From: Phycisphaerales bacterium
GTDB lineage: Bacteria > Planctomycetota > Phycisphaerae > Phycisphaerales > SM1A02
DNA: 32,675 nucleotides
Direction of reading: 5' to 3'
NCBI GenBank assembly: GCA_028823105.1
Contig: JAPKCC010000032.1
Span: 1-32,675, forward strand
Shown: positions 2,272 through 28,968 of the stretch, one piece after another
How positions within the stretch are numbered: the first letter of the stretch is position 1
Layout: the number at the start of each line of letters is the position of its first letter
Position numbers and translations under genes: made by a program
The notes under the pieces: generated by a model
What the model was told of the DNA's origin: nothing
The model's input: the letters and a program-made list of their open reading frames with translations, nothing else
Database searches by the model: none

Positions 2272-3703
2272 ACTTCCCCGCCACATCCTCCAAGAGATCG
2301 AACGAGTCAACCGACGGCAGTTCCTCGGATCCCTCTCGATGGGAGTCGGCGCCGCCGCACTCTCCCAATGGTTGCCGGGCTTCGGGTCTCCGAGCGCGAC
2401 TGCCGACGGCCTGCTTCTACCTGGCCGAATCCCCCGCGCAAAACGGGTGATCTTCCTCTGCATGGCGGGCGGACCAAGCCATCTCGAGACCTTCGATCCC
2501 AAACCACAGCTGAGCGCACTGGACGGGGAAGCGATGCCGGCATCCTTCACCGAGGGCATGCCGATCGCACAGTTGCAGGGAGCGGATCTTCGATGCCTCG
2601 GATCCCGCGCCACCTTCTCGAAGCATGGCGAGAGCGGCCAGACGATCAGCAACTTCCTTCCCCACATCGCGACCTGCGCCGACGACATCGCCATCGTCAA
2701 TTCGATGGTGACCGAGCAAATCAATCACGATCCCGCCCACACGTTCATGAACACCGGAACGATTGTCCCGGACCGCCCCAGCATGGGGAGTTGGGTGAAT
2801 TACGGACTCGGTTCGATCAATGAGGATCTTCCCGGCTTTGTCGTCCTCACTAGTGTCGGCGGCCGAAATCCCCAACCGATTGCGGCTCGACAATGGTCGA
2901 GTGGGTTTCTTCCCAGTCGACTTTCCGGGGTCGAATTTCACGGCCAAGGCGACCCTGTCCATTACGTGAGTAATCCCCCGGGCATCACCTCCGACTGCCA
3001 ATCACATTTGGTCGACGCCGTTCGGGATCTCAATCGCCTTCGCGCCGAGACCACCCACGATCCGGAGATCGACTCCCGAATCGCCCAGCATGAATTGGCG
3101 TTTCGAATGCAGACGTCGATCCCCGACCTCATGGATATCAAAGATGAATCCAAGGAGACGCTGGAAATGTACGGCGCGGTCCCGGGTGACGGATCTTTCG
3201 CGAGCAACTGCCTGCTTGCCCGCCGACTTGCCGAGCGGGGCGTCCGCTTTATTCAGCTCTATCATCGTGGCTGGGACCACCACGGCGGCCTGAAACAGTA
3301 CATGGATATCTGTTGTCGAAACTGCGATCAGCCGACCGCGGCGTTGATTCAAGATCTCAAGCAACGCGGCATGCTCGAAGACACCCTGATCGTTTGGGGC
3401 GGCGAATTCGGTCGCACGCCAATGTCCCAGGGTGGCGGTGCGGATCCGGGCCGCGACCATCACATCAAGGGCTTTTCCATGTTCCTCGCGGGCGGCGGCG
3501 TCAAAGGCGGCGTGACCCATGGCGCCACCGACGAACTCGGCTACAACGCGGTCGATGATGTCGTCCACGTCCGCGATCTTCATGCCACCATGCTGAACCT
3601 GCTCGGACTCGATCACCAGCGACTGAGCGTTCCGTATCAGGGCCTCGACGTCCGCCTCACCGGCGTCGAATCGGCCCGAATCGTCCGCGAGATCCTCACA
3701 TGA
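2264..3703 (+). CDS. DUF1501 domain protein with Tat-type signal
   Basis: A 479-residue protein of the DUF1501 family, which has an alkaline-phosphatase/sulfatase-like fold and is the standard partner of DUF1549/DUF1553 proteins in planctomycetes. The N-terminus carries NRRQFLGSL (residues 16-24), a twin-arginine motif followed by a short hydrophobic stretch, so export by Tat is likely. Family landmarks are RVIFLCMAGGPSHLETFDPK near residue 60, WDHHGGL near residue 340 and GGEFGRTPMSQGGGADPGRDHH near residues 380-400, the last being His/Asp-rich as expected for metal binding. The GTG start at 2264 lies inside the end of the upstream gene, and the stop overlaps the downstream ATG (ATGA), so the three genes probably form one operon. 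The substrate is unknown. Confidence 0.93.
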   Translation: MNELPRHILQEIERVNRRQFLGSLSMGVGAAALSQWLPGFGSPSATADGLLLPGRIPRAKRVIFLCMAGGPSHLETFDPKPQLSALDGEAMPASFTEGMPIAQLQGADLRCLGSRATFSKHGESGQTISNFLPHIATCADDIAIVNSMVTEQINHDPAHTFMNTGTIVPDRPSMGSWVNYGLGSINEDLPGFVVLTSVGGRNPQPIAARQWSSGFLPSRLSGVEFHGQGDPVHYVSNPPGITSDCQSHLVDAVRDLNRLRAETTHDPEIDSRIAQHELAFRMQTSIPDLMDIKDESKETLEMYGAVPGDGSFASNCLLARRLAERGVRFIQLYHRGWDHHGGLKQYMDICCRNCDQPTAALIQDLKQRGMLEDTLIVWGGEFGRTPMSQGGGADPGRDHHIKGFSMFLAGGGVKGGVTHGATDELGYNAVDDVVHVRDLHATMLNLLGLDHQRLSVPYQGLDVRLTGVESARIVREILT

Positions 3704-4479
3704 CCGCATCGGCAAACGCCACCACGAACCCGAAATCGCCCCCGACCGCACCGCCTCTCCCGCCTTCGACGCGAACCCCCGAGCCGGCGGATCGCCTCTC
3801 GACCCGCGCGACGCTCCGACGATGCATCCTCTGGGTGGTGATCGCGTACGTCGCGGGAACCACGAGTTTTTTCCTTGGATTGACCGCGAACGAAGCCTCG
3901 CCGACCGCGATGCTCCTCGGCATCCTGCTCTACGGCTGCTTCATCGGCCTGGTCAGCAGCAGTGGCGGATTTCAACGACGCCTGCAACAACCGTTCGTCG
4001 CGCGGGCGTTCAAGATCGGGTACGGGATCCGCCTTGCTGCCTGCATCGTCCCCGGCGCCGCGATGGCCGTCGACATGTTCCCGGGAATGCTCGCGGTGAT
4101 CGCCGGTGAGACGCTCGAACGTGAAGTTGGATTCGGCAACTTCGCGTCCACGCTGGGGTCGACGCTCGTCCAAGGGACGCTGATCAACATCCTCATCCTC
4201 CTCGTGGTCACGTTCGTCTGGCTCCTGCAGAAGATGTCCATGGAATGGAGGCCTCCGGTACGCGACGTCAGGGCCTGCGCGGGCTGCGGCTACCACCTCG
4301 AGACGCTCGCGGCGGACACCTCCGCGATCTGCCCCGAATGCGGGCGGACCAACGAGGGATTGAACGATCGGCGAGCCTGGATCGATCGAGCATCCTGGCT
4401 GAAGTTCCTCCTCGTGGTGATCGCCTCGGGAATCGGCGGGATTCTGGTCCAGGGTGGTACGTTCTTCGTCTTCGGTTGA
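3700..4479 (+). CDS. Membrane protein with C-terminal zinc ribbon, function unknown
   Basis: A 259-residue protein not recognised as a named family. After a Pro/Thr-rich N-terminal tail (residues 1-35) come four likely membrane segments (about 41-62, 68-87, 111-135, 158-177). These are followed by a zinc-ribbon-like CxxC...CxxC (C193/C196 and C211/C214, in CAGCGYHL and CPECGRTN) and a fifth hydrophobic segment (about 236-258). Small membrane proteins with a CxxCGYxL ribbon are common in planctomycetes and have no assigned function. The ATG overlaps the stop of the DUF1501 gene (ATGA), the usual sign of coupled translation, so it is probably co-expressed with the two upstream genes. The pairing may be fortuitous; I know of no functional link. 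Confidence 0.75.
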   Translation: MTASANATTNPKSPPTAPPLPPSTRTPEPADRLSTRATLRRCILWVVIAYVAGTTSFFLGLTANEASPTAMLLGILLYGCFIGLVSSSGGFQRRLQQPFVARAFKIGYGIRLAACIVPGAAMAVDMFPGMLAVIAGETLEREVGFGNFASTLGSTLVQGTLINILILLVVTFVWLLQKMSMEWRPPVRDVRACAGCGYHLETLAADTSAICPECGRTNEGLNDRRAWIDRASWLKFLLVVIASGIGGILVQGGTFFVFG

Positions 4480-4567
4480 AATCACCGATACGGCGAGAAG
4501 GACCTGCTCACGATCCTCGAGACCGGGAGGCGACATCCATCTCTCTGTAAACCGAGGTCAAGGCCTC

Positions 4568-4768
4568 GAACCCGAAATCGGGCCCACCGGAGCCGCCCCC
4601 GGGCGTCTCCCTTGGATCGACCGCGCCTCGTGGACCGAATTCCTGCTCCGCGGAGTACTCGCGATCCTGCTCTTCGGCGTCGTGCAGGTCGTTCTCATCG
4701 ACGTGTTCGCCGGATCCTTCGGCCGTTGGTGCCGAGAACGACCAGCCCCGTGGTCCACCCGATCGTGA
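4568..4768 (+). pseudogene. Degenerate paralogue of the zinc-ribbon membrane protein tail
   Basis: In a different frame from the upstream gene, the translation contains PEIGPTG followed by WIDRASWTEFLL and a hydrophobic segment (GVLAILLFGVVQVVLIDVF). This lines up with the tail of the intact gene: PECGRTN, WIDRASWLKFLL and its last membrane segment. The seven residues WIDRASW are identical, while the zinc-ribbon cysteines of the second CxxC are replaced (CPEC became EPEI). The copy has no visible start, ribosome binding site or N-terminal membrane domain. I read it as a remnant of a tandem duplication. It could instead be translated as a short protein from an upstream in-frame codon, which I consider unlikely. 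Confidence 0.55.
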
Positions 4769-4813: not shown

Positions 4814-6301
4814 TCAATCGGGACAGACGCCCCAGGCACCGATCATCAGCCCGAGATCGGCGCCATCGATGGACGCATCGTCGTTGAGATCCCCGATACC
4901 GGTCGACCCCCATCCGCCGATCAACAGTCCGAGATCCGCACCGTCGACGACCAGATCCCCGTTCAAGTCGCCGACGCAATCGGGCTGCGGCTCGGGAATG
5001 AAGTCGAACGCCGTGATTTCGATCGACTGCTCCTGCCCGTTCATCGGGGCATTGCCATTGACCAACCAGAGGTTGAGATGCACGCGGGCGAGACCGGGCC
5101 GCGGCTGATGCGGACCGAAGTAATCCCATTCGTGAACCAGTCGCTTCGGAGTGGGTTCATCGGCGTGACCGACCCAGGACTTGCAGTAGACGCCGTCCGA
5201 AGTCCATCTGAACTCATGGGTCATGTCCTCCGGCGCCGGATCCGGGAGTGCGAAACGACTGACGTTCCCGCCCCACCAGTACGGCTGCGCCAAGAACTGC
5301 CCTACGTCGTTACCCGGTTGTCCCCACCGACTGAACTCAATGTCGAATTCATTCGGCGGATTCCACCACATCACTTCATCCGCGTAGCACTCGGCATACT
5401 CCCAGAGGAAGAGACCAAAGACGACGTTCGGATCGAGAAGGTCGAGTCGGCCTCTGGTCTTGAATCGATAGGTGCCGTACCCAAGCACGTCTTCAACCAC
5501 CACTTCAGAGCAACGCCACTGGCCGCCGGTCTGAGTGATCCCCAGCCGCAGTGAGCCGTCGGCGCTCACCGTCGCGTTGTCCGCCGATGCGGAGAACGAA
5601 TTCGGCCCGGGACCGGTATAGGCCGATTTCACCCGCCAGATCCGCTCGTCGAACTCGAGCGCCGTCGAACCAAAGTCGCCCCACTGGTAGACAGAGGGAT
5701 TGACTCTCGACATGCGGAAGGCGTCAACGTACGCCCGGCCCGTCTCCTGGGCTGCGGTCTGAAGAAACGAAAACTCGAGTCGCATGCTGACGGTACCGCC
5801 CGGCGCAGGATCAAAGAGCTCGTTGGTCTCGATCATTTCGTTGACCGGCGAATCGGCATTCAGGAGAATCACCGAATCCGCCCCGAGCGATGATCCGGAG
5901 CCATCGAGCCAGGTCACGGTAAACGCCGCACGAGCGGCGCCGACCAACGCATCGGCACCCCGATGTCCAGCCGACACTTCGAGTCGATGCTGCCAACCGG
6001 ATGTGCATTCGACGGTGAGATACAGACGCGACCTTCCCGCATTGCCGTCGAACGGGCCGAAAAGCCACGCGGCCCAGCTCCCGTGCGCCGTCAATCCATT
6101 GCCTCGCCCAACATTGCCGCTGTTGGACCAACCGGCAACCGGTTCGCCATTGTCGCCCGGCCCGATTTCAAAGCTCGGGTTGTGGGCGGCACAGGGCCCA
6201 TCGTCGCCTCCGACAGCCAAGGCCGTCGCAGCAAATGCTGCAACGGCCGTGGTCTGAAGAACTCGGAGGGAATGACGAATACAGTCAGTCTGAATCATCA
6301 T
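4814..6301 (-). CDS. Secreted GH16-like glucanase with N-terminal CBM-like and C-terminal dockerin-like domains
   Basis: A 495-residue exported protein. The N-terminal signal peptide (residues 1-31) is followed by a beta-sandwich of CBM4/9 appearance starting NPSFEIG (residues 41-198). A GH16-type jelly roll follows (about 205-437). Its core is NEFDIEFSRWG (residues 317-327), fitting the clan GH-B pattern ExDxE with E318 as probable nucleophile, D320, and E322 as acid/base; VLGYGTYRFKTRG just before is also typical. GH16 enzymes cleave beta-1,3/1,4-glucans or related galactans, and the exact substrate cannot be read from sequence. Residues 441-494 form two dockerin-like calcium loops (DLNGDLVVDGADLGLLIGGW and DLNDDASIDGADLGLMIGAW) flanked by Cys442 and Cys493. 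Two tandem ATGs mark the start, preceded by AGGGATG. It follows the gene at 7844-6333 by 31 nt, probably one transcript. Confidence 0.85.
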   Translation of the reverse strand: MMIQTDCIRHSLRVLQTTAVAAFAATALAVGGDDGPCAAHNPSFEIGPGDNGEPVAGWSNSGNVGRGNGLTAHGSWAAWLFGPFDGNAGRSRLYLTVECTSGWQHRLEVSAGHRGADALVGAARAAFTVTWLDGSGSSLGADSVILLNADSPVNEMIETNELFDPAPGGTVSMRLEFSFLQTAAQETGRAYVDAFRMSRVNPSVYQWGDFGSTALEFDERIWRVKSAYTGPGPNSFSASADNATVSADGSLRLGITQTGGQWRCSEVVVEDVLGYGTYRFKTRGRLDLLDPNVVFGLFLWEYAECYADEVMWWNPPNEFDIEFSRWGQPGNDVGQFLAQPYWWGGNVSRFALPDPAPEDMTHEFRWTSDGVYCKSWVGHADEPTPKRLVHEWDYFGPHQPRPGLARVHLNLWLVNGNAPMNGQEQSIEITAFDFIPEPQPDCVGDLNGDLVVDGADLGLLIGGWGSTGIGDLNDDASIDGADLGLMIGAWGVCPD

Positions 6302-6332
6302 CGAAGGTCATCCCTTGGAGAGGGTGAAGGAA

Positions 6333-7844
6333 TCAGGGACCGGCACAGCCGTTGCACACCTCGTCGGCGATGGTCGCACACACGGAATCCCAACCGAACT
6401 CGCAGCAGATCGGATCGACGTTGCACACGGCCTCAGTACAAGTCGCATCCGTGCAACTGGTGTTGCCATTGGCTTCGCAGCAATCGCACTCGGGGCAATC
6501 GCCGGGGTCGCCGGGATCACCGCCACCGGGGCAATCGCCCCAGACCGCGAGGAAAGCACCGACATCGACGCCGTTCACGACGTTGTCTTCGTTGAGGTCG
6601 GCGATACACCCGGGGCACACGCCCCACTCTGCGAACATGACACCGAAGTCGGCACCGTTGACCACATCATCGCCGTTGAAATCTCCGACGCAGGAGGTCG
6701 GCCCACCGCCGCCACTCTCAACGGCCAGATCGATGTTGTCGATTCGGATGGAACCGGTTCCGCAATCAGGCTGAACGATCTGGCACACGATCCGAATCGA
6801 GGTCGTGCCGGCCGGGGCCGCCCCCGAGATCTCGGCCGAGTACCACGTGTCATTGTTAAAAGCGCCGGCACCGTCAAGCACGACGCCCGCGACGAAGTCA
6901 ATCGGATTGCCGAGATCTGAGCCGAGGAATTCGATCTTCTGAAGGACATAGTTGTCCGTTCCCACGATCGAATCGAATGCGGGCGTCCAGGATGACATCG
7001 AAATCGTGACGAAGTCACCTTCGAAGACTCCGGGGATGACCTGGTTCAGACCGGACACGCCGCCTGGGTCGCAAGCGCCGTCGCCGTCATAGTCAGGAAA
7101 CGACCCGAACATCCCCGCCGAATGGGGAGGGGTCAGATAGTTGAAGTCATCAAAGAAGATGTTTCCGTACTGCTCGTCCCAGGCGTTGAAGATCACCGAG
7201 GTCTGATAGCTGTAATCGACGCCGTTATCGAATGACGCATTGATCAGCGGAGCCGCGGGATCTCGTTTATCCGCGGAGAAGTCCATGTCATCGGTCCAAC
7301 TCGCTCCGGGGTCGCTCATGCCAGCCTGAAGGAAGACGGGCACGACGGTCAGGCTTGTCGCGCCGACTGGGGCAACGGTCAGGAAACTCGCTTCCTGCCA
7401 AGCCCCGGTCACCATGTCCGGATCGCTTCCGACCAGAATTCGCTGTTCGGCGATGCTCACCACGGAGCCGCCCGCGTTCTTGAATTCAACCTTGATGCCT
7501 GACCAGTTATTGGTGCCGGCGATACTGTCGAAGTCCGGAGTGAATGCAAACGCCCCGACCCGGTAGACCTCGCCGGCCGACACCGAAACGTCGTAGACAG
7601 AGACCGCACCATTGCCGTTGTATTCCGCACAGAAGCACCCGAACGTCTTCAACGCAAAACCGGATCCCGCGTGGGTGATCTCGCTGCTTCGTTCGGCGTT
7701 CCCGAAGGTGGCGTAGGTGCCGCGAAAATTACTCTCAAACCCTGGGTTCTCGAGGAGGTTCGGTCCTCCGTCATCGGCCAGACTCGTTCCCATGGGAACA
7801 AGTGCGGCAGCAACAAGGCCGAGAGTCATGCTACGAATGGTCAC
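6333..7844 (-). CDS. Secreted two-module protein with dockerin-like repeats and Cys-rich tail
   Basis: A 503-residue exported protein of unknown function. Signal peptide at 1-23; then two related beta-sandwich-like modules, the first beginning NLLENPGFES (29-38). They share a landmark: TPDFDSIAGTNNWSGIKVEF at 102-121 and TPAFDSIVGTDNYVLQKIEF at 287-306, indicating internal duplication. They resemble carbohydrate-binding sandwiches and no catalytic motif is evident. Dockerin-like loops follow (about 385-438: DFNGDDVVNGADFGVMFAEW, then DLNEDNVVNGVDVGAFLAVW), then a Gly/Asp/Pro linker and a Cys-rich end with CC-x3-WD-x2-C-x3-A-x3-C (480-497). The GTG start at 7844 is supported by AGGAG seven to eight bases upstream; the later ATG at 7829 lacks this. 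It is the first gene of a probable pair with the GH16-like gene downstream, so a glycan-binding role is likely but inferred. Confidence 0.82.
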   Translation of the reverse strand: MTIRSMTLGLVAAALVPMGTSLADDGGPNLLENPGFESNFRGTYATFGNAERSSEITHAGSGFALKTFGCFCAEYNGNGAVSVYDVSVSAGEVYRVGAFAFTPDFDSIAGTNNWSGIKVEFKNAGGSVVSIAEQRILVGSDPDMVTGAWQEASFLTVAPVGATSLTVVPVFLQAGMSDPGASWTDDMDFSADKRDPAAPLINASFDNGVDYSYQTSVIFNAWDEQYGNIFFDDFNYLTPPHSAGMFGSFPDYDGDGACDPGGVSGLNQVIPGVFEGDFVTISMSSWTPAFDSIVGTDNYVLQKIEFLGSDLGNPIDFVAGVVLDGAGAFNNDTWYSAEISGAAPAGTTSIRIVCQIVQPDCGTGSIRIDNIDLAVESGGGGPTSCVGDFNGDDVVNGADFGVMFAEWGVCPGCIADLNEDNVVNGVDVGAFLAVWGDCPGGGDPGDPGDCPECDCCEANGNTSCTDATCTEAVCNVDPICCEFGWDSVCATIADEVCNGCAGP

Positions 7845-18277: not shown

Positions 18278-20548
18278 CTACTCGGCAGCGGGAACCGGCT
18301 CCGCGGGCGATGCGGACTTCGCTGCCGCCACCCGACGTTCCAACTCGCCGAGCACGTACAACGCGATCGGACGCTCCGATTCCGGCACTCCGGCCATCTG
18401 ACCTTTCAACTGCATGATGATCATCGGAAGCATCTGACCCATCGCCTCGGCGGGAATCTGAGTCTCCAGTTGTTCGAGCATCATCGTGACCTCACGCTGC
18501 TGGGGCTCGGTCAGGTCGTCGAAGGAGACGGCCTTGAGCACCGGCGCCGGCGCGTCGTCTTCCTCCCAGGCCTTGGTATCGCCGAGATCGAGACCACCGA
18601 TCCGGCGCACCTGCGCCGAAGAGACGGCCACGTCGTCGCCGATCGGCTCGACTCGGCCACCGAGATGGGCCCCAAGGAAGGCCTCGGTGATGGCGTTAAA
18701 GGCCTTGTTGTTTTCCGGCCGGGCAAAACCGTGACCTTCATCCGGGAAGACCACGTAGGTGACGGGAATGTCTCCGGCATCCATCGCGGCAACGATCTGA
18801 TCGCTCTCGCTCAACTTCACCCGAGGATCGTTTGCGCCCTGACCAATCAAGAGCGGCCGATCGATTCGATCGACGTGCACCAGCGGCGAAATCTCATCGA
18901 GCCATTCGGTCTCGTCCGCACCACCAACCCGCTTCTCGAACATGACCTTGACCGGTTCCCAGTAGGCAGGAATCGTCGAGAGCAGGGTTCCGACGTGGGA
19001 GGGGCCGACGATGTCGACACCGCACGCCCAGAGTTCCGGATCGCGGGTCATGCCTGCGAGCGTCGCGTAGCCACCGTAGGAACCGCCCATGATCGCCAGA
19101 CGGTTCGGATCCGCCCACCCTTGATCGACGGCCCATTGCGCGGCATCGTTGATGTCATCCTGCATCGCCTTGTACCACTCACGATTTCCCGCATTCAGAA
19201 ACGCCTTGCCGAATCCGGTCGATCCGCGGAAGTTCACGCTCAGGACTGCATAGCCACGGTTGGCAAGCCACTGGTGATACGGGTTGTAGCCCCAGTTATC
19301 GCGGGCCCAAGGGCCACCGTGTACGAAGACGATCAACGGCACTCGCTCGCCCTTCTCGATGCCGAGCGGAAGCGTGAGATAACTCGGAAGCATCAAGCCG
19401 TCTCGAGCCGGAATCTCCACGCCCTTCATGTTCGCGAGCGGAAGTCCTTCGAGTGCTGGACGGTTCGAGAACAGATAACGGCCTTCCTGGGTGTCGCGAT
19501 CCCAAAGCCAGTACTGCACCGGACCGTCATCGACGAGGTATGCCGCAATCCACGTTCGATCGTCGCCGCTTCGATCAACGATGTTTAATTCGCCGTCGAC
19601 CAGTGTCGAGAGCTTCTCGAGATCGGGTTTCACCGCTGGATCAAGAATCGTCCACTTCGTACGAAGTCGGTTGACCGCGACCGCTTCGGGATGCTTGGTC
19701 AACGGGTTCATCATCACATCCGCGACATCACTCTCGTCGCTTTCAAAGATCGTATCTCGTTTGAAACTTCCATCGGGCTGAGGACGAATCTTCACGAACC
19801 TCGCCTTGTCACCGCCGCGGGCGTCACTCCCCCACATGACCCGGCCCGACTTGTCGAAACCGGCGGTGTTGGTGGCCATGGCATCCTCGAGACCCACGGT
19901 GTCCAGCGCTCGCCATTCGCCTTCGGGAGAATCCCGAAACTCGCTGGCGGTGCCGCCGTCCGGGGTCATCCGGGCGCGGATGCGAATGTTCCAATCATCA
20001 TCCGGCGTCATCCCCACGAAGCCTTCTTCGTTGAGGAAGATCGTCTCCTGCTCGCCGGTCCTGGTATTGATCTTGACCACATCCATGTGCCGAGGATCAC
20101 GGGCGTTGATCTGGCTGAGCACGAAATCGGGGCGATCGCGGTGTCCGCCCATCATCCCCGCCTTGACACCGTCGCCGGGCGTCAGATCGGTCGTCTTGCC
20201 ATCGGCGAGATTGACCGCATAGATGTGGGTGTCTTCGTTGCCGCCCTTGTCCTGCTCGTAGAGGATCTGTTCGTTGTTCCACGACCAGCTGTAACTCCGG
20301 ATCGGACGATCCGTCGACTCCGTGATCGCCGCGGCCTCGCCGCCCGCCACCGGCATCACCCAGACGTTGAGGACACCGTCCAACGGCGCGAGGTAGCTGA
20401 TCTGCGTGCCATCGGGCGAGATCTGAACGTTCGCACGCTCCGGATTGCCGAAGAGCGTCTCCCGAGGAATGAGCGGAACATCGCCTGCGAGGGCGGTGAA
20501 TCCAAGGACATGGCTGATCGAGGCAACAAGAAGAGTGCGAATGAACAT
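18278..20548 (-). CDS. S9 family serine peptidase (prolyl oligopeptidase type), exported
   Basis: A 756-residue protein with a signal peptide (1-21), a WD40/TolB-like beta-propeller (about 35-380) and an alpha/beta hydrolase catalytic domain (about 395-640). The catalytic triad can be read: S490 in GGSYGGYA, D574 in ANDPRV, H606 in DEGHGF. The S9 landmarks FVHGGPWARDNWG, RGYAVLSVNFRGSTGFGK and PENNKAFN are also present. Such enzymes cleave short peptides, often after proline or removing acylated residues; the subclass is not decided here. After the hydrolase come about 110 extra residues with a Gln/Glu-rich helical part (LTEPQQREVTMMLEQLE), unusual for the family. The ATG has GGAG nine bases upstream. 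It lies 120 nt from the upstream fucosidase gene on the same strand. Confidence 0.9.
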   Translation of the reverse strand: MFIRTLLVASISHVLGFTALAGDVPLIPRETLFGNPERANVQISPDGTQISYLAPLDGVLNVWVMPVAGGEAAAITESTDRPIRSYSWSWNNEQILYEQDKGGNEDTHIYAVNLADGKTTDLTPGDGVKAGMMGGHRDRPDFVLSQINARDPRHMDVVKINTRTGEQETIFLNEEGFVGMTPDDDWNIRIRARMTPDGGTASEFRDSPEGEWRALDTVGLEDAMATNTAGFDKSGRVMWGSDARGGDKARFVKIRPQPDGSFKRDTIFESDESDVADVMMNPLTKHPEAVAVNRLRTKWTILDPAVKPDLEKLSTLVDGELNIVDRSGDDRTWIAAYLVDDGPVQYWLWDRDTQEGRYLFSNRPALEGLPLANMKGVEIPARDGLMLPSYLTLPLGIEKGERVPLIVFVHGGPWARDNWGYNPYHQWLANRGYAVLSVNFRGSTGFGKAFLNAGNREWYKAMQDDINDAAQWAVDQGWADPNRLAIMGGSYGGYATLAGMTRDPELWACGVDIVGPSHVGTLLSTIPAYWEPVKVMFEKRVGGADETEWLDEISPLVHVDRIDRPLLIGQGANDPRVKLSESDQIVAAMDAGDIPVTYVVFPDEGHGFARPENNKAFNAITEAFLGAHLGGRVEPIGDDVAVSSAQVRRIGGLDLGDTKAWEEDDAPAPVLKAVSFDDLTEPQQREVTMMLEQLETQIPAEAMGQMLPMIIMQLKGQMAGVPESERPIALYVLGELERRVAAAKSASPAEPVPAAE

Positions 20549-20668: not shown

Positions 20669-22513
20669 TCAACGTGTCGCTGATACCGGCTTGAGAACGA
20701 GGCTTCGGAGATTTCCCGCCGCTTCTCCGGGAATCGTGATGGCCTGAAGCGAGATCGGAATGCCGGCTTGGTCGGCCTCTGAGGGAATGTTGATCCGTCC
20801 GACGTCGATCCGGTCAAAGACGTCCCAGCCGCCGGTGGGCTCGAGGATTTGGATCTCCAGTACGGCCTCGCCGTAACGAAGCTCGAACCGACCGCCCTCG
20901 GCACCGTTCTTGACCGCAAAGTCCATTTGCACGTCGTAGGTCATCCCGGGCATCAGCCTTGCCGTCCAGTTGGCGGTCGCGGCAGGATCGGTCCAGTAGC
21001 CGAGGCTGGGAGTCGAGGAACCCGACGCGTCCGGATAGGACTCGACGCGAATCGCGGCCCCTTCCAGCGTCGCCGACGCCGCGGGAAGACGAATGGTGCC
21101 GGAGGCATCGGCATGAATCGAATCATCGACCTTCGGCGACCCATCCAGTTCGAGCTTGATCACCGTCGCATGTTCGAACGGATGGAGACCCGCGAGATCG
21201 ATGGTGACGCCGGGACCAATCGAATCCTCGACCCCAAGTTCGCGACCGTCACGACGATCACCCAGCATCGTGGCCCGACGAACGTCGTTGACCAGACCCG
21301 GAACCTCGAGCCGGTCGTTCTCCGGCCAGTCGAACACGTGCAGGTAGAGGCTGTCGCCTTTGACGGTGGCGCGGCCCCAGGAGAGATCGCGGAACGGGCT
21401 TTGACGCGTCCCCTTGATCGCCTCGCCGTTGACCGCCAGCCAGTCGCCGATTGCCAGAAGGCGATCGACCATGATCAGCGGAATCCGACCATCCGCGGTC
21501 GGCCCGATGTCGAGCAGGAGCACGCCACCGCGACTCACCAGATCGATGAGTCGTTGTACACACACCGTTCGAGAATCATAGATGTCGAAACCTTCGGCAC
21601 GATTGAAGGCGAATGAATGCCCCACCCCTCGGCATTCCTCGAATGGACGCGTCTTCCGCATCCCCTTGCCGCTCGAGTTACCGAGATTGTCGTATTCCGT
21701 GGTGGTGTAGTCACCGACCTGGCCCCGGAGCCCGCGCCCCCATCGGTCATTGACCACGATCTCGTCTGGGTTCGCGGCATTCTCATAGATCCACTCGAGG
21801 ATCTCGGGGCTCTTCCACAGGGTGTCGGGAAAGTCCCACTCGCCGTCCGGCCAGAACACCGCCGGCTGGTATCGCTCGATGAGATCCTTGATTTGCGGAA
21901 TCATCACCGTGTCGACGTACTCGCTCTTGTCCTCCTTGGAATACAGCGGACTCTCCCACTCCATGAATGAGTAGTAGAGGCCGGGCCGGACCCCTTCCTC
22001 CCGACACGCCTCGAAGAGTTCTCCGAGCAGGTCGCGTTTCGGTCCCGTCCGCATCGAGTCCCATGGATAGCCACGCACTTCGCTCGCGACATCACTCGGC
22101 CAGAGACAAAATCCATCGTGGTGCTTGCTGGTGATGACGATGTACTCGGCCCCCGCACGTTTGAAGATGTCGGCCCACTCCGCGGGATCCCACATCTCGG
22201 CCCGGAACATCGGCGCGAATTCGTGATACTTGAAATCTTCTCCGTAGTTCTCGGCGTGAAACTTCGTCACTTTTCCGCCATGCGAGTTGGTGTTCAGCCA
22301 GAGCTGGTACCACTCGCTATAGGTACTGGTGTCACAGAAACTCGGCACCGAATAGACACCCCAGTGAATGAAAATTCCGAATTTCGCATCCTCGAACCAC
22401 TCCGGCGTCGGGTGCGTCTCGAGCGACTCCCAATTGGGTTCGTAATTCACGGGCGGTTCCACCGCGACGCTGGCGGCGGCAACCACGAGACAGGGAAGGA
22501 CTGTGTGGATCAT
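20669..22513 (-). CDS. GH29 alpha-L-fucosidase, exported
   Basis: A 614-residue protein with a signal peptide (1-18) and a GH29 barrel (about 28-370). Landmarks are WFEDAKFGIFIHWGVYSVPS (39-58), SKHHDGFCLW (129-138) and PAVFWPDGEW (217-226), where D223 is the expected nucleophile of GH29 fucosidases. ECRGVGHSFAFN and GGVLLLDIGPTADG are also typical. The C-terminal part (about 400-614) is beta-rich and probably a carbohydrate-binding sandwich pair. The enzyme would remove alpha-L-fucose from glycans. The ATG at 22513 overlaps the stop of the sulfatase gene (ATGA), and GGAG lies seven bases upstream. The frame is open a further 168 codons upstream, but that part only mirrors the sulfatase gene in another frame. 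Coupling with a sulfatase points to a sulfated, fucose-containing substrate such as a fucan. Confidence 0.92.
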   Translation of the reverse strand: MIHTVLPCLVVAAASVAVEPPVNYEPNWESLETHPTPEWFEDAKFGIFIHWGVYSVPSFCDTSTYSEWYQLWLNTNSHGGKVTKFHAENYGEDFKYHEFAPMFRAEMWDPAEWADIFKRAGAEYIVITSKHHDGFCLWPSDVASEVRGYPWDSMRTGPKRDLLGELFEACREEGVRPGLYYSFMEWESPLYSKEDKSEYVDTVMIPQIKDLIERYQPAVFWPDGEWDFPDTLWKSPEILEWIYENAANPDEIVVNDRWGRGLRGQVGDYTTTEYDNLGNSSGKGMRKTRPFEECRGVGHSFAFNRAEGFDIYDSRTVCVQRLIDLVSRGGVLLLDIGPTADGRIPLIMVDRLLAIGDWLAVNGEAIKGTRQSPFRDLSWGRATVKGDSLYLHVFDWPENDRLEVPGLVNDVRRATMLGDRRDGRELGVEDSIGPGVTIDLAGLHPFEHATVIKLELDGSPKVDDSIHADASGTIRLPAASATLEGAAIRVESYPDASGSSTPSLGYWTDPAATANWTARLMPGMTYDVQMDFAVKNGAEGGRFELRYGEAVLEIQILEPTGGWDVFDRIDVGRINIPSEADQAGIPISLQAITIPGEAAGNLRSLVLKPVSATR

Positions 22514-25296
22514 GGGGAATCTCCGGAACGTTGGGGCCTCGGACGGTCGACCCCCGCCAGATGAAGAGGAAGCCGGCGTTCTCCCGTAAGAACGAACCGA
22601 CCATTGAGTTGCTGAATAGCGCCGTCGAGTGGGATCTCGAAGCCCGGCCTGAATCCTGGGACCGCGATGACTTGGACCACCGCACCTCCCAGGCCCCGAT
22701 GAGCCAGACCGCGGGGCAGGAGGACCAATGATCCGGCGTACAGCGGGATCGATTCGAACAGGCCGTCGAGTTCCGATTCGGAGAACCGCGAATACTCTTG
22801 GGACAACGCCACCGACCCACTGGCGACCAGTTGCTCGCGGTCCAATCGGGCGGTCTCGCGGCAGACCAGCAGCCGGGCGCCTTCCGGCGCCTCTTGGACG
22901 AGATAGAGCTCGTCCCATCCACCCTCGACTGGGTGGTAATGGGTGAACGAGTCGTCGATCCGTACCCGGTGACAGTTGAATCCTCGGTTCACGTACGGGC
23001 CGCGGGCCGGATCCCAAGTCAGAAGAAGACGACGGTACGCGCCCGGATCAGTGGCGCAACCGCCCGGCGTGTCGGTGAGTGCAGGATCGAAGTCCGGCCG
23101 AATGATCGACGGAACCGACTCGTCGAGCGGTTTCGAAATTCCGAAGCTCAGGATGTCCAGAGGCGAATCGAAGCGGGCGACGTCGCCCGGCCTCAGCGCC
23201 AGCAGATCACCGACTCGGAGTAGCGACGCGATGCGTCGGCCAACCTCGGTGATCACTTCTCCCTGGGTCTCGCCTCGCTGGACGAAGACCACGCGGTGCC
23301 CTTCATTCGCGAGCACAACCTCCGTCGAGGCGGTGAATTCGAGTGACGTGCCGGGATTGCGAGCCGCGAGGGTCTCGGCGAGATCCCGAAGACCGGGGCC
23401 GCCGGGAAGATCCAGCCTCGCTTCGATCGGCGGCGCCGCTTGGGCAGTCTGTCGGATCCGGGTCACTTCGCAACCGCCTTCCGGCCGCGGGACAACCTGA
23501 TAGTCACGACCTTCGACGGCCCGACCTTCTTCGGCCCTCATCTTCTTCGAATGCTTGCGCCTAAAATCGTCCGGCGTGTGCCGCTCGAGCACCAGCGCAC
23601 CACCCGCTTTTGTGAATCGAACCGTCGCGCCGTTCAACGGATCGCTCGGACCGCTGAGGGTGAGCGTGCCACCGTCGATGACCACCTCGACGTTCTTCAC
23701 AAACTGCTTCCGGACGACAAGACCGGGGCCGATCTCCATCACATCGACTGCCGGCTTCGGTTTCACGGGGGCGTCTTCGTTCCAACCGAAGTTCCATCCC
23801 GGCACCGCGGACACTGAATGTTCCTCCCGCATGATCTCGAGCATCCGTGCCGCGATCTCCGGGTGGTCGGACGCCACGTCAGAAGACTCGGTGGGGTCGA
23901 TCTCAAGGTCGTAGAGCTCAACCGGCGTGTCGGCATCACGATGCACACCGGCTCGAACGCCCTTCCATCGGTTCCACCGCACGGCCTGGAGTCCACCACC
24001 CGCGTGGTACTCCCAGTACAGATGATCACGCTCGGGCGCGGCTCCACGCCCCAGAAGCAGCGAAGAGAGATCGATCCCGTTCATTTTCGACTTGGAGGTG
24101 GTCCCTGCCACCGAGAGAATCGTTGGCATCAGATCCCAGTTTGCCACGGGCGTGGCATTACTCGAGCCTGCTTTGATCCGATTCGGCCAGGTCGCGATCA
24201 ATGGAACACGGATGCCACCCTCGTACAAATTGCACTTGTGACCCCGGAGTCCCCCCGTGCCATCGAAGAACGGCGGGTCATATCCGCCGATGCCGAACGT
24301 CGATCCGTTGTCACTGGTGACGATGACCAGCGTGTCATCGGCGACCCCCGCCTTCTCCAGCGCCGCCATCATCAACCCGACGTTGCGATCGAATCGTGAG
24401 ACCATCGCGGCATAGGTCGCCCGTGGGGTCGCATTCGGCAGGTAACCCTTCCCACCCTTGTATGGCGTCTCGTCCCATTTGCCTGCGTACGCCGCCAGCG
24501 AATCGTCCGGCACCTGCAGCGCCAGGTGCGGCACCGGCGTCGCGTAATAGAGGAAGAAGGGCTCGTCCGCATGCTCGCGAATGAACGCCGTCGCCCGATC
24601 GATCATCGGATCGGTGGAATACCGAATTCCGGTGAGCCCGCGATCGTTGCCTTCGAGCAACAGTTGTTCACCGTCTTCCACGATGTAGGTTGGATAGAAG
24701 TTGTGCGCATTGCGCTGGCAGAGATATCCGATGAACCCGTCGAAGCCGTGATCCGTCGGCATGCTCCCCAGCTTCGGCCCGCCCAGTCCCCACTTCCCTG
24801 CCATGTAGGTGGCGTAGCCTCGACGCTTCAGCGCGGTCGCGATGGTTTCGGTTCCTTCGACCAAGCCGCGTTGACCTCCCCACCAACCACCAGGCGGCGG
24901 CGCCGTCCAGCCGGACAGCTCCTCGGTTCCCGGTTCGCCCGGATCACCCGAGAAGTTCGGCGTCTCGCCGTTGTCACGAATCTGAGAAGCACCGGTATGC
25001 AGGCCGGTCAGCAGCGTGCATCGACTGGGGGCACAGACCGTCGAACCGGAATACGCCTGGGTGAAGAGCATCCCCTTCGCTCGAAGTCGATCGATGTTCG
25101 GCGTCTCGATGCGGGCACTTCCCGTACATCCCAGCTCGGCCAGACCGAGGTCATCGGCCATGATCAGGACCACGTTGGGCGGACGTCCCGATTTCTGGTC
25201 GCTCGCGACCTGCGCCGCTGCGAAGCCAAACGGGCCAGCTGATGCCGCGAGAATGAAGAGGAACGCGAAGGGACCGAGAATTTGACTCATGCTCAT
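22510..25296 (-). CDS. S1-type sulfatase fused to a C-terminal bicupin domain
   Basis: A 928-residue exported protein. Signal peptide 1-29. The sulfatase domain (about 38-505) has NVVLIMADDLGLAELG (41-56, metal-binding Asp pair) and the S1 signature CAPSR at 88-92, where C88 would become formylglycine. Also present are GKWGLGG (168-174), TSDNGSTF (327-334) and a late YWEYH. Sulfatases of this type usually stop at about 500-550 residues. Here about 400 more follow: a beta-strand-rich linker (525-640), then two cupin-like barrels (about 650-722 and 755-882). The second has a metal-type motif, HYHPVEGGWDELYLV (786-800; H786, H788, probably E796) and LPRGLAH with H866. The first has the strand pattern but no matching histidines. 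An anaerobic or FGE-type maturase is not in the window. It is co-transcribed with GH29 downstream. Confidence 0.85.
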   Translation of the reverse strand: MSMSQILGPFAFLFILAASAGPFGFAAAQVASDQKSGRPPNVVLIMADDLGLAELGCTGSARIETPNIDRLRAKGMLFTQAYSGSTVCAPSRCTLLTGLHTGASQIRDNGETPNFSGDPGEPGTEELSGWTAPPPGGWWGGQRGLVEGTETIATALKRRGYATYMAGKWGLGGPKLGSMPTDHGFDGFIGYLCQRNAHNFYPTYIVEDGEQLLLEGNDRGLTGIRYSTDPMIDRATAFIREHADEPFFLYYATPVPHLALQVPDDSLAAYAGKWDETPYKGGKGYLPNATPRATYAAMVSRFDRNVGLMMAALEKAGVADDTLVIVTSDNGSTFGIGGYDPPFFDGTGGLRGHKCNLYEGGIRVPLIATWPNRIKAGSSNATPVANWDLMPTILSVAGTTSKSKMNGIDLSSLLLGRGAAPERDHLYWEYHAGGGLQAVRWNRWKGVRAGVHRDADTPVELYDLEIDPTESSDVASDHPEIAARMLEIMREEHSVSAVPGWNFGWNEDAPVKPKPAVDVMEIGPGLVVRKQFVKNVEVVIDGGTLTLSGPSDPLNGATVRFTKAGGALVLERHTPDDFRRKHSKKMRAEEGRAVEGRDYQVVPRPEGGCEVTRIRQTAQAAPPIEARLDLPGGPGLRDLAETLAARNPGTSLEFTASTEVVLANEGHRVVFVQRGETQGEVITEVGRRIASLLRVGDLLALRPGDVARFDSPLDILSFGISKPLDESVPSIIRPDFDPALTDTPGGCATDPGAYRRLLLTWDPARGPYVNRGFNCHRVRIDDSFTHYHPVEGGWDELYLVQEAPEGARLLVCRETARLDREQLVASGSVALSQEYSRFSESELDGLFESIPLYAGSLVLLPRGLAHRGLGGAVVQVIAVPGFRPGFEIPLDGAIQQLNGRFVLTGERRLPLHLAGVDRPRPQRSGDSP

Positions 25297-25420: not shown

Positions 25421-25450
25421 ATGCCCACCATGCCCACCATGCCCACCATG
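25421..25450 (+). repeat. 9-bp tandem repeat ATGCCCACC over the start region
   Basis: Three exact copies of ATGCCCACC (25421-25447) followed by another ATG. Each copy supplies an in-frame ATG, so the downstream gene has four stacked start codons and an N-terminus (MPT)3. No Shine-Dalgarno sequence is evident. Confidence 0.85.
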
Positions 25451-27565
25451 TACTTCCCCATCCGAACACTCCTCATCATTCTCCTTGGGCTGGGAATGGC
25501 CGCGCCAGCTGCCGTCGCCTCCGCCCCGCCCGAAGGATTTTCCCGTACCGGCGCTCCCGGTGACTGGGGCGACATCGTCGGCATCGTTCCGGTCGGAGAC
25601 GGAAGGTTCGTCGCATGGGAACGAGCGGGCGTGGTCTGGATGTTGGGGCCGGACCTTGCGATGAGCATGGAACCGATGATTGACCTGCACGACGAAGTTG
25701 GAGGCTGGCGAGATCACGGCCTCCTCGGACTAGCGCTCGATCCGGACTTTCTCACCAACGGACGCGTCTACCTCCTCTACGTCGTCGACCGATACTTTCT
25801 GCTCAATTCCGAATCTCCCGACTACGACCCGGATGCCAACCTCTACTTCGAGGCGAGCATCGGCCGGATCACCCGATACGCCGCGACGCCCCGAAGCCAA
25901 TTCGCGACGATCGATCCGGAGAGCCGGACGATTCTTCTCGGGGACACCATCACCACTGGCCTCCCAATTCTCGGCCAGTCTCACGGCGTGGGATCGCTCG
26001 CCTTCGGAGACGACGGAACATTGCTCGCAAGCATGGGCGATTCCGCCAGCTACTTCGAAGTGGATACCGGCGGACCATTCGAAGGTGGATGGGTGGAGCA
26101 GGGGCTGGCCGACGGCATCATCACACCCGATCAGAACATCGGCGCGTTCCGATCCCAATACATCGACTCGCTTTGCGGCAAGATCCTCAGACTCGATCCC
26201 GAGACCGGCGACGGTATCTCGAGCAACCCCTGGTACGACGCCGATGCACCCCGATCGCCGAGAAGCCGTGTCTTCTGTCTCGGACTGCGAAATCCCTTCC
26301 GGATGTCGATCATTCCCGGAACTGGAAGTACCGACCCGGCAACCGCCAGACCCGGCGACATCTCTTACGGCGACGTCGGCTGGAACACCTGGGAGGACTC
26401 TGGTGTGGTCAGCGTTCGGGGAACGAACCTCGGATGGCCGCTCTTCGAGGGCCTCGACACCAACCAGGAATACTGGAACACCAACACCCTTCATCCCACC
26501 GCCGAGAATCCCCTCGCCGGGGAGAACGGATGCCCCGAGCGATATCGGTTTCGAGACCTGATTCTGCAGGACTCCCAGCCGCGAACCTATCCCGAGAATC
26601 CCTGTGATCCGGCATGGCAATTTCCAACCTCTTGGACCGGCCCGACCTTCAAAAACGAAGTCGGCGGATACACGGGTGAGGGGTATCTCGACTTCGGCTC
26701 TCGCATCGGCGAGGTGATTGACTTCAACCTCGACGTCGACGCCAACGGCGTCCAGCAACTCGGGCTCCGATTCGCCAACGGCGGTCCGGACCCGCGGCCG
26801 GTCGCCATCGACATTGACGGCATCCTGCAGACGACGCTCGACATCCCGCCGACCGGCGGTTGGGCAGAATGGCGGACCGCGTGGTTCACCGCCGACCTGA
26901 CCACTGGCTCCCACCAGATCCGCGTCCGAACCATCATCCCGACCGGACCGAACGTCGACCGACTGGACACACCCGATCTTCCGTCCACCCCAGTGGTCGG
27001 CACACCGGTCTTCAGTCACCAACGCCCAATGCTGGAATTCCGACACAGCATCACCGAAACCCGAATACCGACGTACACCGGCGGCGACGCCACCGAAGTC
27101 ATGATCGGATCGAGTTCGAGCCCCATCACCGGCTCGCCGTTCCGCGGAAACTCCGTCACCGGTGGCGTGATGCAGTCCCATCCGGCCTGGCCCGCTGAAT
27201 GGAGAGGGATCTTCATCGCCGACTTCCTGCACCAGTGGCTTCGAGTCCTCAAGTTCGATTCCGACGGCGTGCCGACCAGTATCGAAATCTTCGATCAGAC
27301 CGCCGGCCCGGTGGTCGCGCTCACGGTGGATCCGGTCACCGGGGATCTCTTGGCCATTCGTTGGAGCAGTCAGCCGATCCGCTACTCACCACCCGCCAAT
27401 CCATGCCCGGCGGACTTCAATGGTGATGGCATCGTCGGCGGCGCCGACCTGGGACTGTTGCTCGCGGCATGGGACAGTTCCCGCGGCGACCTCGACGGCG
27501 ATGGGACGACCAGTGGTGCCGACATCGGCCTCCTTCTTGCCGCATGGGGCGACTGCACGCCCTGA
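25421..27565 (+). CDS. Exported PQQ-type sugar dehydrogenase-like (GSDH) propeller with CBM-like insert and dockerin
   Basis: Up to 714 residues; the mature-looking signal peptide starts at Met10 (25448, YFPIRTLLIILLGLG), so the true start may be any of four ATGs. The beta-propeller (about 40-345 and again 525-655) has GSDH/sorbosone-dehydrogenase landmarks: HGLLGLALDPDF (99-110), SHGVGSLAFGDDG (187-199), GKILRLDPETG (253-263), GLRNPFR (288-294) and GDVGWNTWED (317-326). Enzymes of this type oxidise soluble sugars with PQQ; whether this one binds PQQ is not decided. A CBM6/35-like module (about 405-505, EGYLDFGSRIGEVIDF onward) is inserted before the last blades. Dockerin-like loops close the protein (665-709, between C662 and C712). 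It is read divergently from the sulfatase operon, 124 bp apart. Confidence 0.82.
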   Translation: MPTMPTMPTMYFPIRTLLIILLGLGMAAPAAVASAPPEGFSRTGAPGDWGDIVGIVPVGDGRFVAWERAGVVWMLGPDLAMSMEPMIDLHDEVGGWRDHGLLGLALDPDFLTNGRVYLLYVVDRYFLLNSESPDYDPDANLYFEASIGRITRYAATPRSQFATIDPESRTILLGDTITTGLPILGQSHGVGSLAFGDDGTLLASMGDSASYFEVDTGGPFEGGWVEQGLADGIITPDQNIGAFRSQYIDSLCGKILRLDPETGDGISSNPWYDADAPRSPRSRVFCLGLRNPFRMSIIPGTGSTDPATARPGDISYGDVGWNTWEDSGVVSVRGTNLGWPLFEGLDTNQEYWNTNTLHPTAENPLAGENGCPERYRFRDLILQDSQPRTYPENPCDPAWQFPTSWTGPTFKNEVGGYTGEGYLDFGSRIGEVIDFNLDVDANGVQQLGLRFANGGPDPRPVAIDIDGILQTTLDIPPTGGWAEWRTAWFTADLTTGSHQIRVRTIIPTGPNVDRLDTPDLPSTPVVGTPVFSHQRPMLEFRHSITETRIPTYTGGDATEVMIGSSSSPITGSPFRGNSVTGGVMQSHPAWPAEWRGIFIADFLHQWLRVLKFDSDGVPTSIEIFDQTAGPVVALTVDPVTGDLLAIRWSSQPIRYSPPANPCPADFNGDGIVGGADLGLLLAAWDSSRGDLDGDGTTSGADIGLLLAAWGDCTP

Positions 27566-27861: not shown

Positions 27862-28968
27862 GTGTTCCGACCCACAAAACCAAAATCGCCATTCGGCCGA
27901 GCTGATCGTCTGCAGTATGGGCTTGACCAGGTCACGCAGCATCTCTTTGGATCGGACCGCCTGAATAAAATCTTCAAGTCGCGTCCCCTGCGTCGCCGTC
28001 AACTTCTCGACCGGATGTACTCCAGCCTCAAGGCCTCGGAGCCCATTCCTCTTCAACCAGTTGACCGAGTCAAAGATATTTCCATCGCTGATTTTCGACG
28101 TGATTATCAGAAGACCGGAATTCCGGTTGTTCTAGAAGGCGCTGCACTTGATTGGCCATGTTGCAAGACGTGGAACCTCTCATTTCTCTCAGAAAAACAT
28201 GGCGATGATCTGGTCTTAGGTGATCGTGGCTTCTCAACCTTGAAAGCCAGCCTTTCGCGAATCGAGTCTGGATTTAACGACTATCTCCGTTTCTACGCAC
28301 TGCTACAGCGGCATCCAGAAAGACTCTGCGACCTCGATCTCAAATGGTTGCGAGCAAGACGTAATTCGAGCTCAATCAACATCGACCAGGGTTTTCAAAC
28401 TTTCATCGGAAACTCTGCGTCGCCCACGACCCATCTTCACAACGCCAATGATGCGAACCTCTTCATCCAAGTCACGGGCGAGAAGCACTGGATCTTCTAT
28501 CCCAGTGCCTTTACATCGGCCATCGATCCACCGGCGACCCGGAGCGAATATCGAACCCATCGAACGGACGAACCGTTCTTCGATCCGTTTGCGCCGAACT
28601 ACGATGCATTCCCGGTCTTCAAGCACGTTCCCGGATGGGAGACCGTGCTCAAGCCGGGTGACGTTCTTTGGAATCCACCGTACGTGTGGCATACGGTCCG
28701 GAACCTCAGTGATCCGACGATTGGCGTCGGTTATCGCTGGGTCTGCCCGACCGACTGCTTCCGCCGAGAGCCTCTCTACGCGTTCCTCGATTGCCTGGCC
28801 ACCACCCCTCCCATCTGGAAGTCCCTCCGTCAGTCAGACCGGGGATTTTTATTGGTGCTCTTGCAGCACTTTGAAGGGCACCGGCTGCCTAGATACGAGG
28901 AGTTCAATTCTCAATTGAACGCGTCGTACAAAGAATATCGGGCCATGAAAAAGAGACTTCTAAAGTAA
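27862..28968 (+). CDS. Cupin_8/JmjC-like protein with non-canonical metal site
   Basis: A 368-residue protein without a signal peptide, probably cytoplasmic. The double-stranded beta-helix is seen in PVVLEGAALDWP (88-99), TTHLHNANDANLFIQVTGEK (189-208), WIFYPS (210-215) and LKPGDVLWNPPYVWHTVRN (263-281). These match Fe(II)/2-oxoglutarate enzymes of the cupin_8/FIH type. In that family the first metal motif is normally HxD six residues before the conserved Asn. Here that position reads H193-N194-A195; H191-L192-H193 is an alternative. H277 is the distal histidine. The GTG start has AGAGGA eight bases upstream. The gene is clearly AT-richer, especially in its first half, and lies between two copies of a duplicated segment. 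Function is unknown; a hydroxylase acting on protein or small molecules is the family norm. Confidence 0.75.
   Translation: MFRPTKPKSPFGRADRLQYGLDQVTQHLFGSDRLNKIFKSRPLRRRQLLDRMYSSLKASEPIPLQPVDRVKDISIADFRRDYQKTGIPVVLEGAALDWPCCKTWNLSFLSEKHGDDLVLGDRGFSTLKASLSRIESGFNDYLRFYALLQRHPERLCDLDLKWLRARRNSSSINIDQGFQTFIGNSASPTTHLHNANDANLFIQVTGEKHWIFYPSAFTSAIDPPATRSEYRTHRTDEPFFDPFAPNYDAFPVFKHVPGWETVLKPGDVLWNPPYVWHTVRNLSDPTIGVGYRWVCPTDCFRREPLYAFLDCLATTPPIWKSLRQSDRGFLLVLLQHFEGHRLPRYEEFNSQLNASYKEYRAMKKRLLK

Follow-up and report, generated by a model that had tools for sequence, protein, structure and literature searches.

What would an S1 sulfatase gain from a double cupin attached to its C-terminus, and is such an arrangement real? 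The question is raised by a minus-strand gene (22510..25296; 928 amino acids, ATG start) in the 32,675-nucleotide stretch of planctomycete DNA analyzed here (hereafter, the window). A sequence-only reading had described the product as an S1 sulfatase with a C-terminal bicupin, and this description is upheld by the sulfatase profile match (PF00884, E-value 1.2e-55), by a structural model with two barrels and by the matches of that model to bicupin folds. The protein starts with a hydrophobic stretch (residues 1-28; 25213..25296, minus strand) that, judged by eye, is a candidate export signal, and consists of the sulfatase, a spacer and the double cupin, an architecture that we consider nearly certain.

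Architecture of the fused gene

A continuous fused frame also occurs in three further genomes from this genus, G133 (locus L054), G127 (Phycisphaera sp. TMED9; L055) and G130 (L056), with whole-protein identities to the window fusion of 87%, 83% and 71%, respectively. In all six pairs of fusion genomes, dN/dS of residues 632-914 is 0.07-0.18, much like that of the sulfatase part (0.07-0.16), these values being approximate because dS is 0.6-1.7, near saturation. Purifying selection acts on the cupin part. With the frame shared by four genomes and dN/dS low, chance or misassembly is unlikely. The window does come from a draft assembly of 194 contigs, where an assembly or frame artefact could join a sulfatase to a cupin, but four genomes have the same join, at protein identities of 71-87%, the codons are constrained and the overlap with the downstream gene is conserved, so that the chance of an artefact is practically negligible. 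That downstream gene encodes a GH29 alpha-L-fucosidase (20669..22513, minus strand; PF01120, E-value 4.2e-113 on 20669-22489), the ATG start of which shares bases with the stop of the fused gene (overlap ATGA). The overlap is kept as ATGA in the window, G133, G130 and G129, and as GTGA in G132.

The sulfatase domain occupies residues 38-492 (23821..25185, minus strand): PF00884 matches residues 40-398 with 189.4 bits, against a curated cut-off of 25, and the alignment with solved sulfatases extends to residue 492. The C-x-P-S-R motif (CAPSR, C88; 25021..25035, minus strand) is intact and conforms to the formylglycine motif C/S-x-P/A-x-R; we take C88 to be the site of formylglycine formation, as in Cys-type sulfatases. 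The closest solved relatives are BT1622 (7ana/7anb, E-value 1.7e-100) and BT1636 (7an1/7oqd, E-value 2e-72), which rank as the top two among 84 solved sequences and again among the 11 in the alignment. The whole catalytic domain aligns with both, whereas the solved chains, of 503 and 510 residues, contain neither spacer nor cupin. H198, within CQRNAH (24703..24705, minus strand), aligns with the His of CQRQSH in BT1622 and of CQFQAH in BT1636; we presume that this conserved residue recognizes the axial O4 of galacto-configured sugars. In PMC10154620, BT1622 and BT1636, the two top solved relatives and the closest characterized ones, are both labeled S1_20, which makes the window sulfatase S1_20-like, and PMC10154612 describes S1_20 enzymes as recognizing the axial O4 through a His. 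The active site is of the Ser type in the solved S1_20 enzymes according to PMC13383068 (S75, S77), whereas it is Cys in the window sulfatase.

Following the sulfatase is a spacer of about 115 residues (514-628; 23413..23757, minus strand). The sequence-only reading had assigned the entire tail of about 400 residues to two cupin barrels. The assignment holds for residues ~632-914, whereas the first ~115 residues (514-628) belong to a distinct region, as became apparent when residues 514-928 were searched against 181 genomes of the family and the tail fell into these two parts. The spacer has no Pfam match; according to phmmer, it also terminates the cupin-less sulfatases of G132, G129, G040 and G042, and weak matches to it are present in further secreted planctomycete proteins of the family. 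Residues 500-928 have no match of their own in Pfam, NCBIfam or PDB sequences, residues 514-928 match no curated Pfam model, and no NCBIfam match was found in 10 members of the cupin family. In the sulfatase of G040 (L033), the short tail that follows the spacer resembles, by eye, the two cupin ends joined; if this reading is true, the sulfatase-cupin fusion would be older than the divergence of genera g1 and g8. A full-length model of the window protein was useless for domain packing (mean pLDDT 47.5).

Fold, metal set and relatives of the double cupin

The double-cupin module (residues 632-914; 22555..23403, minus strand) was delineated from free-standing homologs, the model and the fold matches. 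The model of residues 500-928, built from 8 sequences (mean pLDDT 63.7, pTM 0.62), contains two beta barrels, and the PDB folds that it matches belong to bicupins, namely oxalate decarboxylase, salicylate dioxygenase, quercetin dioxygenase, vicilins, KduI and IolB-like chains, so the cupin fold that had been suspected withstood structure prediction and fold search. Barrel 1 (residues 623-720; 23137..23430, minus strand) is modeled with pLDDT of 87-95 per ten-residue block over residues 620-719, and no HxH/E/H ligand set was found in it among the 28 members compared. Barrel 2 (residues 774-880; 22657..22977, minus strand), the putative metal-binding one, is less sure, with pLDDT of 45-90 by block over residues 770-879. 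Its predicted ligands are H786 and H788 of the HYH motif (22933..22941, minus strand) and E796 (22909..22911, minus strand), each present in 28 of 28 members, and H866 (22699..22701, minus strand), present in all 27 members that reach it, one member being truncated; the respective blocks have pLDDT of 59, 76 and 80. The four residues that had been named as a metal-binding set in the second barrel are accordingly in place and conserved. Membership in the cupin superfamily is supported by the two modeled barrels and with the HxH/Glu/His set of barrel 2; Pfam cupin matches are weak and occur in up to 5 of 10 family members, with none for the window's own cupin.

Conservation is uneven along the module. 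The inter-barrel segment (residues 726-773, PGGCATD...YRRLLLTW; 22978..23121, minus strand), marked by invariant residues and low model confidence, is the tightest part, with dN/dS of 0.03-0.07, and barrel 1 is the loosest (0.08-0.40). Besides the ligands, N774, H776, R777, R779, C747, Y754, R755, R756 and W761 are invariant in the members compared.

The module has the two-barrel fold in common with gentisate and salicylate dioxygenases, oxalate decarboxylase and vicilins, at low identity (8-16% among the matches listed), and a common bicupin fold does not imply a common function with any of these. A metal-dependent oxygenase, which might, for instance, cleave a sugar acid or a glycan-bound aromatic dioxygenolytically, is nevertheless one possible reading: the VIA fold list is topped by salicylate and gentisate dioxygenases (Z 13-14), the Foldseek matches include quercetin dioxygenase, and a His/Glu metal set also occurs in cupin dioxygenases. 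However, VIA matches that lie within 1 Z of each other count as ties, and KduI and IolB-like chains reach 12.6, such that the fold matches favor no single bicupin family or function; no aromatic pathway genes are found among the neighbor genes scanned by family; and the sole recognized profile relative is an isomerase. We consider an oxygenase quite improbable.

By sequence profile, barrel 2 is closest, among recognized relatives, to the catalytic barrel found in type I phosphomannose isomerase (PMI). All six of the scanned weak out-of-family matches of the bicupin profile are type I PMIs (PF20511), and hhalign of the family against these six gives 96.7% (E-value 4.6e-10), a score flattered by the selection of the six with the family profile itself. 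Against PMIs selected by PF20511, the score is 87.4% for 14 of 16 sequences, a set that omits L126 and L127 (QAHP motif), and 86.7% for all 16, with both restored; five non-cupin families used as controls give 0.1-1.6%. Single PMIs behave unevenly, with 8 of 16 at E-value <= 0.001 and two long-type ones at 0.8% and 0.2% alone. The best PDB sequence match is a PMI (1qwr, E-value 0.017), with vicilin at 0.021, and no PMI is among the 50 VIA matches listed.

The likeness spans the metal barrel: E796 aligns with the Glu in the K-x-E-A-W motif of PMI and H866 with the C-terminal His, that of S/W-G-x-V-H, and the Glu-to-His distance is 52-70 in the bicupin family and 58 in 18 of the 20 PMIs matching the pattern. 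The differences are equally concrete. The first ligand is His in the bicupin (H786-Y-H788-P) and Gln in PMI (Q-x-H-P), a correspondence of HYH with QVH that was made by eye and not aligned by hhalign; the His-to-Glu spacing is 7 in barrel 2 and 15-22 in PMI; and the bicupin has no equivalents of the PMI-conserved K and W (K-x-E-A-W) and E (AEVQ), with HYHP, DELY and VQVI where PMI has QxHP, KxEAW and AEVQ. PF20511 has no match in the window protein or in 10 family members, and the window protein, unlike type I PMI, carries a candidate export signal. Because several residues conserved in PMI are absent, the bicupin is not a PMI, and a PMI is encoded elsewhere in the window genome (G000:C181); the bicupin may work like PMI on another substrate.

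Other cupin isomerases, compared as small sets, showed no profile relation to the bicupin. KduI and IolB-like chains (PF04962) match the bicupin model at Z 12.6, and gave no Pfam match and 0.3% in hhalign with only two sequences; D-lyxose isomerase (PF07385) gave 0.6% with only three. As single sequences, these proteins reach 0.1-0.4%, against 0.2% and 1.4% for controls.

Distribution, fusion partners, gain and loss

As judged from profile searches, the bicupin is a distinct planctomycete family that is unnamed in Pfam and NCBIfam. With a profile of 10 members, it was detected in 18 of the 392 sampled Planctomycetota genomes, including that of the window; 20 genomes matched, two of which (G458 and G618) held only a PMI. 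In a class-level sample, the family is present in 4 of 397 genomes, along with one distant relative, the 11 matches comprising 4 family members, 1 distant partial match (G767) and 6 PMI-like proteins (three of them scanned: L120, L121 and L125). The G767 relative (L119, 1525-2082, minus strand; E-value 5.4e-19) has an HFHP motif and a conserved GHRG, with one in-frame stop in its stretch, and may mark a wider superfamily.

The 28 members compared include 4 sulfatase fusions, 2 fusions to DUF6807 (PF14100) and 22 apparent separate genes, the upstream parts of long frames (e.g., L057, L088 and L091) being counted as non-coding. Thus, the typical member is a separate gene of about 300 amino acids; several of these start, by eye, with an apparent export signal or lipobox, and L093 and L096 do not. 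In the DUF6807 fusions (L095, 5207-7042, and L097, 4880-6640, both minus strand), which form one clade and come from one other family of genomes, DUF6807 is attached to the C-terminus of the bicupin. One candidate member, L061, was rejected, as its frame reads by eye as a phosphatidylserine decarboxylase with one short stretch in common, which left 7 of the 8 loci of the homolog set.

The arrangement had been put forward as an unfamiliar one, and we did not find it already catalogued: the tail has no named Pfam or NCBIfam family, and no paper on a sulfatase-cupin fusion was found in the open-access PMC literature. The parts belong to known superfamilies; neither the architecture nor the bicupin family has a name in Pfam or NCBIfam.

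The four sulfatase fusions group as a single clade in the cupin tree (100/99), beside the free-standing gene of G068, a genome of the same family. Genomes with and without the cupin are intermingled in the sulfatase tree, with G130 (fused) next to G129 (not) and G133 (fused) next to G132 (not), and the fused or cupin-less label requires three changes, which fits, and by these trees implies, one gain and two losses of the cupin module within the genus. In G129 (L032), DNA matching both ends of the sister's cupin remains in the sulfatase tail, and the gene still overlaps that of GH29; this DNA scar indicates that at least the G129 case is a loss. No clear cupin remnant was found in G132. The bicupin is a transferable family, mostly a separate gene, that has been lost again in relatives.

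The module, dispensable in these relatives, could be a non-catalytic sugar-binding or oligomerization module that holds the sulfatase on the glycan, its metal set binding a ligand or stabilizing the barrel. An accessory role of this kind agrees with the sister genomes that carry the sulfatase without the cupin, with the faster evolution of barrel 1 (dN/dS 0.08-0.40), which lacks ligands, with the vicilin-type storage bicupins among the fold matches and with the f23 copies that adjoin a legume-lectin-like dockerin protein. Yet the bicupin is usually a separate gene rather than a tail, and the invariant ligands and inter-barrel segment suit catalysis better than binding; we find a non-catalytic role somewhat unlikely.

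Genomic contexts and proposed function

Taken together, the contexts of the bicupin genes point to carbohydrate metabolism, as judged from gene families, and not to one reaction. In the window, the GH29 gene is followed by a gene for an S9 prolyl-oligopeptidase-family peptidase (18278..20548, minus strand; PF00326, E-value 2e-44), and divergently, upstream of the fused gene, lies a gene for a glucose/sorbosone-dehydrogenase-like protein with CBM6 (25421..27565, plus strand; PF07995, 1.8e-12; PF03422, 6.2e-07), a neighbor also found in L054. A sulfatase gene (L099, 2754-4802, minus strand, in G453) is about 0.8 kb from a free-standing bicupin, with BLAST homologs in L098 and L100, and in L085 a bicupin lies near a legume-lectin-like dockerin protein. 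The cluster at L096 (1900-10325; cupin at 5622-6464, with no obvious export signal) includes Amidohydro_2, NAD epimerase, galactarate/altronate dehydratase, LUD and SSF-NANM genes, several of which have BLAST homologs in L093; it is possibly a cluster for the catabolism of sugar acids, perhaps of L-fucose, the association with a fucose pathway resting on gene families at this one locus and on the homologs in L093.

Some of these contexts suit a different metal-cupin sugar chemistry, that of an epimerase, mutarotase, lactonase or lyase, or a 3-keto-glycoside route with DUF6807 and Gfo/Idh/MocA proteins. DUF6807 is fused to the bicupin in 2 genomes and, in a further 6, encoded no more than 2.5 kb away (8 of the 15 genomes tested, all from two families, f38 and f62, with one to six copies each); a Gfo/Idh/MocA oxidoreductase is encoded near the bicupin in L094 and a 3-keto-disaccharide hydrolase in L058; and the Amidohydro_2, epimerase, galactarate/altronate dehydratase and SSF-NANM proteins of L096 can be read in the same way. 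In the other 7 of the 15 genomes, however, DUF6807 is on another contig, and the sets of neighbors vary between families; such chemistry is, in our estimate, unlikely.

Among the functions originally suggested for the bicupin (sugar binding, a second metal, an isomerase or a dioxygenase), an isomerase is the best backed, through the profile relation to type I PMI. We put forward, tentatively and at less than even chances, that barrel 2 is a metal-dependent isomerase-like sugar enzyme. Counted in its favor are the PMI relation, the invariant ligands, the sugar-gene contexts and the dN/dS of 0.07-0.18; counted against it are the unusual notion of an exported isomerase working before uptake, the loss of the module in relatives, the differing PMI residues, the uneven scores of single PMIs, the indecisive fold matches and the lack of a Pfam cupin match for the bicupin of the window protein.

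Under the isomerase reading, the protein would be an exported two-enzyme fusion acting on sulfated galacto- or fuco-configured glycans. The S1_20-like sulfatase would remove a 3-O-sulfate from a terminal galacto-configured residue, the GH29 enzyme would release L-fucose, and barrel 2, with one divalent metal, would convert the freed sugar, or its lactone or acid, in unphosphorylated form, by an aldose-ketose or epimerizing reaction resembling that of type I PMI; barrel 1 would be structural. The broadest form of this proposal is doubtful: that exported metal-dependent sugar isomerases, or enzymes of close chemistry, form a new family that occurs across Planctomycetota and is fused here to an S1_20-type sulfatase, such that one secreted protein both removes sulfate from a fuco- or galacto-glycan and converts the freed sugar prior to uptake, with DUF6807 as the other partner. 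If the isomerase reading is right, it would provide the first functional lead for the unnamed bicupin family of 18 of 392 sampled Planctomycetota genomes and, via fusion and neighborhood, one for DUF6807, which Pfam lists as a family of unknown function; extracytoplasmic processing of a desulfated sugar by some bacteria would then be suggested as well.

Two further proteins encoded near bicupin genes were observed. In L093, a MbnB/TglH/ChrH RiPP-modification protein (3342-4757, plus strand) is encoded about 1 kb from the bicupin gene. The window itself encodes a second cupin-type protein (27862-28968, plus strand; Cupin_8, 7.2e-22; JmjC_2, 4.1e-06), which is unrelated to the fusion.
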